Under the pieces are notes generated by a model that ran no database searches, was not told where the DNA came from, and saw only the letters and a program-made list of their open reading frames with translations. The position numbers were made by a program, and so were the translations under genes. From a virus, in the IMG/VR virus record IMGVR_UViG_3300025070_000274, positions 1 to 21,663 of that record: 21,663 nucleotides of DNA. The stretch is one strand, 5' to 3'. Below, piece by piece: positions 16,324 to 18,096 of this stretch (position 1 is the first letter of the stretch; every line of letters begins with the position of its first letter).

Positions 16324-17157
16324 TTATTCGGTGCAAGAAATTTTGACAATGCCTTCACCGTCGATTGCAACAGAACCTGCGGAGAACATCGAGCTAACCA
16401 AGAATGACGTTTTTTCCGGAACGTAATTCACTTCGGTTTTCTGCGACATTGACTCAGCGTAGCCCATTGAATCCTGGTGCCAAGCAAAACAGGTGCGAGT
16501 AGAAGGCTTAGGAATACCGCCCTCATCACGATCACCCATAGTCAAAATGGTGAAGCCCATGAACGTGTTGATCTCACCTTGCACAAGAGCCTTTACAGCA
16601 GCAAAGTCTTGGCTAGTGATTTCAGTTTCACCAAGCAATGCGTCAAGCTGAGAAGCGTGCATGAGCAACCTACGATTTTCTGAAGGTACGTTCTTCTCAT
16701 TCAATGCTTTAGCTGTAGCGCGTAGCTTTTCAATGTTCATGTTAGTGCCAGCACCGCCCACAGTTGTTGCAACTGTAGATGTACCAGTGGCCGCGTTCAG
16801 AGCATCAATCATAATCTGATCCATACGACGAGCGATAGATTTAGATACGACTTGAACCAACTCAGAGCGCTCATCAAAGTTGATGTGCGATTGCTGGAAG
16901 ATGTCTGAATATTCTGCCGCGATGTAATCTTCCATCGTTGCAGTTACTCGACCATAAGTCACGTTTAGTGGTGTGACATCAGTTTGTGGAACGCGAAGTG
17001 TAGCAACACCTTTTCCGATTGTGGGAAACTTTACGGTATTACCGGCTACTCCGGTGCGTGTCCTCATCGTGCCGCGAAGCAGCGATTCGGCTTGATACGC
17101 TTGTTTGACCTCAGAGTCGAAAAGATCAACAAACGCCGTTGTGACGTTCTGCGCCAT
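16324..17157 (-). CDS. Major capsid protein
   Basis: The 277-residue product builds the icosahedral head. Start MAQNVTTAFVDLFDSEVKQAYQ is followed by 'RGTMRTRTGVAGNTVKFPTIGKG' (an extended-loop region typical of this fold), then 'TMEDYIAAEYSDIFQQSHINFDERSELVQ' and the spine helix 'SKSIARRMDQIMIDALNA'. The C-terminal half contains LLMHASQLDALL and 'INTFMGFTILTMGDRDEGG', matching the phage capsid family with an HK97-type fold (I believe PF19821, from memory) rather than T7 gp10 itself, which is 345 residues. The gene lies between scaffold and tail genes, where a capsid is expected. It has the strongest ribosome site in the window (AGGAGGT, seven bases before ATG) and a long structured leader, consistent with the most highly expressed gene. 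Confidence 0.93.
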   Translation of the reverse strand: MAQNVTTAFVDLFDSEVKQAYQAESLLRGTMRTRTGVAGNTVKFPTIGKGVATLRVPQTDVTPLNVTYGRVTATMEDYIAAEYSDIFQQSHINFDERSELVQVVSKSIARRMDQIMIDALNAATGTSTVATTVGGAGTNMNIEKLRATAKALNEKNVPSENRRLLMHASQLDALLGETEITSQDFAAVKALVQGEINTFMGFTILTMGDRDEGGIPKPSTRTCFAWHQDSMGYAESMSQKTEVNYVPEKTSFLVSSMFSAGSVAIDGEGIVKISCTE

Positions 17158-17164
17158 TGCAGAT

Positions 17165-17171
17165 ACCTCCT
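17165..17171 (-). promoter_or_regulatory. Strong ribosome binding site of the capsid gene
   Basis: AGGAGGT on the minus strand, seven bases upstream of the capsid ATG, is a near-full match to the 16S rRNA 3' end. It fits the need for very high capsid translation. Confidence 0.8.
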
Positions 17172-17176
17172 ATTGG

Positions 17177-17325
17177 GTTTCAACAAAACGCTTCCGTTAT
17201 CCGAGGGTCGGGCGGTCGCTTGCGCGTTATGGCCGCGCCAGCCAGTAGAATACTACATCCAACGGGCCGGTGCGCGGTTAGCCGTCAAGACTAAAATACA
17301 CGCAAGCGATACTTATTGCAAGAGT
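17177..17325 (-). promoter_or_regulatory. Non-coding gap with nested inverted repeats (capsid leader)
   Basis: The scaffold-capsid gap is the largest in the window and clearly richer in G and C than its surroundings. It can fold as a nested set: outer 9-bp arms TCGCTTGCG/CGCAAGCGA (17309-17301 with 17224-17216), middle 6-bp arms CCGCGC/GCGCGG (17277-17272 with 17238-17233), and an inner 4-bp hairpin (17256-17245). A small CCGA/TCGG hairpin follows at 17211-17201. An alternative 5-bp hairpin (17238-17222) would exclude the outer and middle stems. No reading frame of note was found. Function, such as translational control or RNA stability, is inferred. Confidence 0.5.
17293..17321 (-). promoter_or_regulatory. 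Possible sigma70-like promoter for the capsid unit
   Basis: TTGCAA (17321-17316), a 17-base spacer and TATTTT (17298-17293) sit just after the scaffold stop on the minus strand. Each box matches four of six consensus positions. A transcript from here would begin near 17286 and would lack the outer arm of the nested repeat. Confidence 0.3.
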
Positions 17326-18096
17326 TTAGGCTCTTTGCTGTGATTGGAACCATTGACGTTCCATTTTGGTGCGCCAGGCGGCATCAGTTTTCCAACGCGG
17401 ATCTGCAACAGCAACATTAAGATCTTCTTTAGTAAACTCTTGCTGCTCGACCACAGGCTTGATCGGAATGTTCTCATTCGTGATAGCCTGGTGATACTTT
17501 AGGAACGCATTGATTGAGTCGGCATTGTTCAGAGAATATGCTATCGCTTCACGCTCAGAGTTGTTGAGAGGCGCTTTCTGCAAGATGCGCTCAGTCATTT
17601 GGATCTTTTCAGAGGCGTTAGAGCCTAGCTTCTCCATCTCAGCGCGCTGATCGTACTGGACACTCTCTTGCTCATCCTTCGCCATAGATAAGACGCGACC
17701 GGCAAGATCCTCGAAAGCATCCTGGCTAATCCCGTTTTCCTTAGCCCAGTCCTGATATACGGAGACAGTCGGATCGTCAGCGTCCAAACCCTGATCCGCA
17801 AGTGAAGATATATCATACTGCTCCGGTGCTTTATGCTTGCCCGACTTAAACTTCTTTTCCAGCTCTGCGTAACTTTTCGCCAGCTTTTCAACATCAGGGC
17901 CATCCTCATCCCAAAACTTTGCAGGGTAATAGTCAGGGCGCTCTAGCGGCCCATCATCATCTTCAGATGCTTGCATCTCTTCCTGTGGCTGTTCGTGAAC
18001 CGGAATAGGTGCATCCTCTTGAGGAGCCTCTGGTTCTACCACGTTAATCAACGGTGCATCTGCATCCGCTTCTACTGCTGCCGCTTCTTCAGCCAT
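17326..18096 (-). CDS. Capsid assembly scaffolding protein (gp9-like)
   Basis: This 256-residue protein is expected to guide capsid assembly and leave the head before DNA fills it. It is acidic, with a disordered Glu/Asp/Pro/Ala-rich N-terminus (1-55), then 'RPDYYPAKFWDEDGPDVEKLAKSYAELEKKF' (54-84), the signature near the start of gp9-like scaffolds, and KAPEQYDISS. The middle and C-terminal half are helical, and the end 'DPRWKTDAAWRTKMERQWFQ' is basic and aromatic, as expected for the capsid-binding tail of a scaffold. T7 gp9 is 307 residues. The ATG overlaps the previous gene by 8 bases with AAAGG upstream. Directly after it come the gap and the capsid gene, the standard order. Confidence 0.92.
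   Translation of the reverse strand: MAEEAAAVEADADAPLINVVEPEAPQEDAPIPVHEQPQEEMQASEDDDGPLERPDYYPAKFWDEDGPDVEKLAKSYAELEKKFKSGKHKAPEQYDISSLADQGLDADDPTVSVYQDWAKENGISQDAFEDLAGRVLSMAKDEQESVQYDQRAEMEKLGSNASEKIQMTERILQKAPLNNSEREAIAYSLNNADSINAFLKYHQAITNENIPIKPVVEQQEFTKEDLNVAVADPRWKTDAAWRTKMERQWFQSQQRA

Follow-up and report, generated by a model that had tools for sequence, protein, structure and literature searches.

In IMG/VR virus record IMGVR_UViG_3300025070_000274, whose 21,663 bases are called the window here, the gap preceding the gene for the major capsid protein (MCP) very probably encodes a structured 5′ leader RNA with a pseudoknot, which belongs to a new family and acts in cis on the MCP transcript. 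Comparison of related leaders shows that an RNA fold, made up of helices H1 and H2, a pseudoknotted H3 and H4, is conserved on the capsid strand, at a fixed place and in one copy per contig. From this we infer both action in cis and the existence of a partner.

Anatomy of the conserved RNA

The genes of the window, annotated by PHROG, lie mainly on the minus strand in a podovirus order: a portal-like head-tail adaptor (PHROG 332), a scaffold-like protein, the MCP and two tail proteins (PHROG 394 and 376). The scaffold-like and MCP genes are separated by 168 bases, and the structured RNA lies inside this gap; no tRNA or tmRNA was found in the window. The nearest named phage is Methylophilales phage MEP301, with an MCP identity of 61.6%. 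The elements of the region are listed below in window coordinates; A1 is the alignment, and R1 and R2 are the models, described in the following sections.

17326-18096: scaffold-like gene
17293..17321, minus strand: predicted promoter, TTGCAA 17316-17321, 17-nt spacer, TATTTT 17293-17298 (clade score against shuffles)
17301..17309, minus strand: 5′ arm of a 9-bp outer stem, inside the promoter spacer, partner 17216-17224
17189..17286, minus strand, read 17286 to 17189: conserved structured RNA core, 98 nt (A1 pair counts; R1, 83 bits; R2, 29 bits, E 1.7e-6)
17282-17286 with 17261-17265, minus strand: H1 outer stem, 96.2% of cells paired (A1)
17278-17281 (CUAA) opposite C 17266, minus strand: H1 internal loop
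17274-17277 with 17267-17270, minus strand: H1 inner stem, 89.9% of cells paired (A1)
17245..17256, minus strand: H2 hairpin, 17253-17256 with 17245-17248, 99.0% paired, 4 of 4 pairs with double changes (A1)
17230..17244, minus strand: pseudoknot, UGG 17242-17244 with CCA 17230-17232 in the H3 loop, 98.7% paired (A1)
17222..17238, minus strand: H3 stem, 17233-17238 with 17222-17227, 92.6% paired, 5 of 6 pairs with double changes (A1)
17213-17215 with 17194-17196, minus strand: H4 outer stem, 100% paired (A1)
C 17212 opposite AUAA 17197-17200, minus strand: H4 internal loop
17208-17211 with 17201-17204, minus strand: H4 inner stem, 93.8% paired (A1)
17166..17171, minus strand: Shine-Dalgarno sequence AGGAGG of the MCP gene (sequence)
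16324..17157, minus strand: MCP gene, 277 aa (PHROG 3437, E 3.4e-53)

The common plan comprises H1 with its internal loop, H2 (in types 1 and 3, defined below), an H-type pseudoknot with H3, the trinucleotide AAG, H4 and a terminal GCG. Taken as a whole (17261..17286), H1 has double changes in 5 of its 9 pairs; in the window itself, its last inner pair is a C-C mismatch. The outermost pair of H3 on the loop side is often unpaired, and AAG (17219-17221) comes next. The pseudoknot pairing UGG/CCA is replaced by UAG/CUA in four loci (L091, L094, L131 and L187). In H4 (17194..17215), 4 of 7 pairs have double changes, and the outer pairs occur as CCG/CGG, CUG/CAG, UUG/CAA and GCG/CGC (A1).

The internal loop of H1 consists of four bases, NNAA or NNAC and usually NUAA or CAUA, opposite a single C, and H4 repeats it in inverted order. 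The loop of both helices can be written as 5′-GG-NNAM-C-3′ against 5′-G-C-CC-3′, and the two copies may form one and the same three-dimensional module. Between the core and the Shine-Dalgarno sequence (17166-17188) the window has a GAAAC or GARAACC stretch, which recurs in many type-1 and type-3 leaders.

Covariation, strand and constraint

Type-1 relatives were collected by three scans with MCP proteins, which gave 202 usable leaders from 212 loci, some loci being one contig fetched more than once. Two loci were left out on purpose (L001, L082), four were too short (L003, L052, L068, L208) and four had no matched start (L009, L022, L148, L152). Judged by their last 160 bases, 95 leaders, including that of the window, are distinct. 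A regular expression that splits the type-1 element fits 89 of 96 distinct leaders, and the core is visible by eye in the other 7.

The structure was read from A1, which holds 52 distinct cores including that of the window, and its pairs were then counted. Of 1466 cells, 95.4% pair, as opposed to 85.4±0.5% in shuffles; 157 cells are double-changed, as opposed to 38.9±5.7, and both sides have changed in 19 of the 29 pairs. Partners moved by 1-3 columns pair in 30-41% of cells, a contrast that is inflated because the structure was derived from the same sequences; the counts also include changes common to related sequences. Double changes in independent lineages are less exposed to both objections, circularity and kinship.

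In the stems, G-U exceeds A-C by 50 to 10 in A1, by 38 to 13 in the type-2 alignment A2 and by 13 to 5 in the type-3 alignment A3 (H4 left out), and the conserved molecule is therefore taken to be RNA on the MCP strand. A DNA-level element, such as an operator, a packaging site or a replication site, is by contrast very improbable: it would suit the single copy per contig and the outer arms, which form an inverted repeat across the promoter, but not this tolerance of G-U over A-C, nor a place between promoter and Shine-Dalgarno sequence that is fixed in three clades.

The core is also under constraint. It is more alike than the third codon positions of the MCP in 779 of 780 pairs (mean identity 0.686 vs 0.470), as compared among 40 of the 52 type-1 sequences, those with a 277-codon MCP. 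Motif loops are more conserved than stems (mean identity 0.881 vs 0.747). Such loops, in a compact pseudoknotted fold, would be expected of a riboswitch, a ribozyme or another ligand-dependent RNA by which the capsid gene would be informed of how the infection stands; this reading is nonetheless improbable, given that there is no Rfam match, that no conserved expression platform was seen and that the gene context is single.

The initial annotation had proposed two tests, covariation in relatives and a minimum free energy better than that of shuffled sequence. The former gave a strongly positive result, whereas the free energy of the core alone (17189-17286) is no better than that of shuffles (z -0.04), and its predicted minimum-energy structure differs from the covarying fold. 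Free energy was dropped as proof of structure, the core not being exceptional in this respect.

The same plan in three clades

The model R1, built from type-1 cores, recovers the core from every one of 77 sources; these comprise 76 of 80 loci from one MCP scan plus the copy in the window, and most of them either contributed to the training set or are similar to it. A DNA-pattern scan reached a locus (L288) whose MCP belongs to another group, termed type 2. Of 80 type-2 loci, 79 have an R1 match in the MCP leader, at 18.8-30.8 bits, and in the remaining one (L397) the core is recognisable by sequence. The type-2 RNA is without H2 and has a longer pseudoknot. In A2 (33 cores, five rows of which are out of register in H3), 92.9% of cells pair, with 68 double changes against 25.2±4.9 in shuffles; two of five measures are less decisive, namely further pair types (93 of 500 shuffles) and pairs with a double change (2 of 500).

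A third version of the RNA (type 3) precedes the MEP301-type MCPs (80 loci). Type-3 sequences were extracted by match coordinates, and one (L476) was dropped as too short. In A3 (40 sequences, with the MEP301 row misaligned and many rows out of register in H4, where 55.0% and 74.4% are paired), 87.8% of cells pair and 153 double changes stand against 52.2±8.2 in shuffles; further pair types are not above shuffles (237 of 500). R1 finds 34 of 81 type-3 sources at E<=0.12, with a best E of 1.2e-6, and misses MEP301.

The model R2 was trained on 28 type-3 cores (alignment A5), from which MEP301 was left out. It finds MEP301 at 94.6 bits (E 6e-26; 23636-23744, minus strand), just before its MCP, and the window at 17189-17287 on the minus strand with the score listed above; no other match was found in six sources totalling 195,505 bases. 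Among type-1 sources, R2 detects the leader in 19 of 26, with E<=5e-4 in 17 cases; among type-2 sources it detects the leader in 0 of 12. The pseudoknot pairs in 98.7% of type-1 cells, in 84.8% of type-2 cells and in 100% of type-3 cells, where it is invariant. The same plan is kept in three clades, and their covariation upholds the suggestion of the initial annotation that the capsid gene has a structured leader or regulatory RNA.

The RNA is found once per contig. Each of 17 whole contigs has one R1 match at E<=1. In 9 type-3 contigs there is a single strong match apiece, accompanied in two of these contigs by weak ones of at most 11.3 bits; the contigs used for these counts may be fragments. 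DNA-pattern sites lie before an MCP gene in 63 of the 80 matches listed in a first set, the other 17 having no R1 match above 17.8 bits. The corresponding counts are 78 of 80 listed in a second set (2 being too near an end) and 77 of 80 listed in a third (2 near an end, 1 before an MCP without a start). Thus, the MCP is the single gene context among the matches listed, and other contexts may exist beyond these. In the contig of L618, an intact RNA is followed by an MCP frame without the usual start.

The RNA was not recovered from more distant named phages: over MEP301, SI2, HTVC010P, Vibrio phage 416E50-1 and EXVC031P, R1 gave only two chance-level matches, which score 8.4 and 8.2 bits and each lie in Dunaliella viridis virus SI2. 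This virus (L214, NC_023841) carries phage-type head, tail, holin and terminase genes together with a related MCP; it is labelled as having a green-alga host, a label that looks doubtful. In bacterial contigs scanned with the L288 MCP, none of 40 pattern matches was confirmed as a relative.

Promoter and predicted transcript start

The RNA is preceded by a predicted promoter that would place the transcript start at 17286-17287, on the first base of H1. In type 1, the score of a sigma70-type promoter before H1 is 10.69, as opposed to 7.78±0.16 in shuffles (72 distinct leaders), and the -10 box ends 6-7 bases before H1 in 63 of the 72. Analogously, type 2 scores 13.2 vs 7.73±0.23 (35 leaders), with the -10 box 6-7 bases before H1 in 31, and type 3 scores 10.43 vs 7.94±0.16 (56 distinct leaders among 74 located of 79), with the -10 box 5-6 bases before H1 in 40. 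It should be noted that the window itself has only weak -35 and -10 boxes, which fall below the threshold of a generic promoter scan. The MEP301 paper does not use the words promoter, terminator or noncoding (PMC8024684).

In the stretch of about 95 bases that precedes H1, a terminator-like hairpin is present in 18 of 36 type-2 leaders (0.1 in shuffles) and in 31 of 64 type-3 leaders (0.6 in shuffles), and in 0 of 91 type-1 leaders. Because in types 2 and 3 these hairpins stand just upstream, a fresh start of transcription there is likely. In several type-2 leaders (L333, L334, L345, L352 and L362), a -35 box TTTACA lies inside the loop of the terminator hairpin upstream of H1, and the 3′ arm of the hairpin with its T-run forms the promoter spacer, so that the upstream stop and the capsid start use the same bases.

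Putative mode of action

The following mechanism would fit this arrangement. Host RNA polymerase would start at the dedicated promoter, and the transcript would begin with H1 itself. With its opening nucleotide already paired in H1 and the pseudoknot as a lock, the 5′ end would shield the late capsid message from 5′-end-dependent decay. The Shine-Dalgarno sequence, about 20 nt further downstream, would meanwhile stay open and allow much capsid protein to be made. A stem closed at its first base would hinder such decay, which suits a message needed in bulk. Protection from decay is the likeliest of the modes of action considered, yet a tentative one: a simple 5′ hairpin would be enough for protection, and the elaborateness of the conserved fold suggests that there is a specific partner, which argues against mere protection. 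The twin internal loops of H1 and H4 are the likely points of contact with such a partner. It is possible, if short of probable, that the pseudo-symmetric RNA, with its twin loops around the pseudoknot and its start at the first nucleotide of the late capsid transcript, binds the transcribing host RNA polymerase or a virion protein and thereby couples late transcription or capsid supply to assembly.

An RNA that governs the supply of capsid protein in this way is not known from tailed DNA phages, nor was one found in the literature searched. A folded RNA at the head of the message for a bulk protein would, if true, be a control point in aquatic phages that are known almost only from metagenomes; since the isolate MEP301 carries the RNA, its start, structure, partner and effect are directly testable. 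R1 and R2 can serve to mark this group of phages, and they are candidates for inclusion in RNA family libraries.

A partner might also act on translation. An autogenous operator, whose loops and pseudoknot would be bound by the MCP, the scaffold or another late protein so that surplus protein represses capsid translation, in the way gp32 uses the leader pseudoknot of T4 gene 32, is a somewhat doubtful explanation. An H-type pseudoknot in a leader, two copies of one internal-loop module and the constant presence of the capsid gene are what it would predict; however, the core ends about 18 nt before the MCP Shine-Dalgarno sequence in the window, and no conserved alternative pairing that hides this sequence was found.

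It is unlikely that the RNA works in the manner of put RNA, in which case the nascent leader would bind host RNA polymerase and make it resist pausing or termination over a long late operon. The RNA does begin where transcription of an operon, one that extends for about 17 kb in the window, is predicted to start. Moreover, MEP301 encodes no RNA polymerase (PMC8024684), and putL of HK022, which follows its promoter closely, is active as an RNA by itself (PMC9378689). Yet, downstream terminator-like sites are near chance, both strands taken together, in the window (19 vs 15.0±3.9) and in MEP301 (15 vs 10.5±2.9), and put RNA is described as a two-stem V without a pseudoknot (PMC9378689). The near-chance number of terminators argues against antitermination at intrinsic terminators, not against anti-pausing; antitermination was for this reason set aside as the leading mechanism.

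Relation to known RNAs

At gathering scores, Rfam 15 has no match in the window or in 20 loci of the three types, nor does it have any at E<=5 in the leaders of L413 and L345; below threshold, the window stretch gives 3 matches, none of them over the core on the minus strand. A known RNA family was rejected because Rfam 15 gave no match in any clade. No description of such an RNA was found in the literature searched, and these two results together are why we regard it as a new family of structured phage leader RNA.

The closest likenesses are partial. According to a 2010 review, the T4-type gene 32 pseudoknot may be the only viral pseudoknot that autoregulates translation (PMC3014915). Like the capsid leader, it is an H-type pseudoknot in a phage mRNA leader, where it is followed by an unstructured stretch and by the ribosome site (PMC3014915); unlike it, the capsid leader is longer, has three further helices and belongs to phages of another group. 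The T4 operator heads the gene of a single-stranded DNA-binding protein and is bound by its product, whereas the gene here is that of the MCP.

HK022 put RNA resembles the present RNA in its size of about 70-100 nt, in its position directly after a phage promoter (predicted here) and in its stem-loops with internal loops; it differs in having two stem-loops of about 70 nt in early operons (PMC9378689), whereas the capsid RNA precedes a late gene and has four helices plus a pseudoknot. Put RNA suppresses termination and pausing via the β′ zinc-binding domain, and polymerase binding is putative in our case. The manA and wcaG motifs of marine metagenomes and cyanophages are likewise structured RNAs mainly from marine metagenomes and phages (PMC2864571); they precede metabolic genes, unlike the capsid-leader RNA, which has no Rfam match.

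The 5′-terminal stem-loop stabilisers of the ompA and papA type would be a further likeness if the capsid transcript begins at H1, as predicted, since an abundant message would then carry base pairing at its extreme 5′ end. These stabilisers are simple stems that lengthen mRNA half-life and are not known to be held by covariation across clades.

Nested inverted repeats and the predicted promoter

The initial annotation had described a nested set of inverted repeats in the leader and an alternative hairpin competing with the two outer pairs. All four arm pairs are present in the sequence: 9-bp arms TCGCTTGCG (17216-17224) and CGCAAGCGA (17301-17309), 6-bp arms CCGCGC (17233-17238) and GCGCGG (17272-17277), 4-bp arms GTAG (17245-17248) and CTAC (17253-17256), and the arms of the alternative hairpin, GCGCG (17222-17226) and CGCGC (17234-17238). 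The gap is also GC-rich as described, at 0.553 in 17175-17324, compared with 0.427-0.540 in other 150-base windows of 16500-17999.

As for the fold itself, the innermost 4-bp pair is H2, whereas the two larger pairs are without covariation. The 5-bp hairpin is real and lies within H3; it is part of the conserved structure itself and not a competing alternative. The 6-bp pair, whose formation excludes H1 and H3, pairs in 81.5% of cells vs 79.9% in shuffles, with 6 of 286 cells double-changed vs 3.3±1.5. The 9-bp pair reaches 70.1% vs 68.9±0.7%, a value reached in 38 of 500 shuffles (39 sequences). The nested fold was accordingly rejected as the functional structure. A swap test of duplex energy is mildly positive for the 9-bp pair: with 59 pairs, none of 300 swaps does as well, and with 30 thinned pairs 4 of 300 do. 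This stem may be a feature of the window's closest relatives.

Because the 5′ arm of the 9-bp stem lies in the promoter spacer, the stem can form only in read-through RNA, where it would compete with H3. A read-through switch confined to the window's subclade might make use of this: the spacer arm would pair with the AAGCG region and break H3, and only RNA started at the promoter would fold correctly. We consider such a switch quite improbable. The swap test favors it, as does the complementarity of 12 of 13 bases between 17216-17227 and 17298-17309, and in types 2 and 3 the terminator occupies the same region; against it, the 39 sequences contain no covariation, and only 1-4 of the 9 pairs form in ten leaders (L045, L048, L061, L073, L077, L120, L129, L144, L145 and L174). 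The complementary stretches have one mismatch as DNA and none as RNA if G-U is allowed; 17298-17309, in the promoter region, complements the end of H3 and the AAGCG stretch, a match kept in close relatives and lost in many others.

In 17177-17325 as a whole, the minus strand has a better predicted fold than its shuffles (z -2.47; matched by 4 of 200), and the plus strand does not (z -0.29). In the predicted minimum of the minus strand, the outer stem grows to 12 pairs and lies partly upstream of the core.
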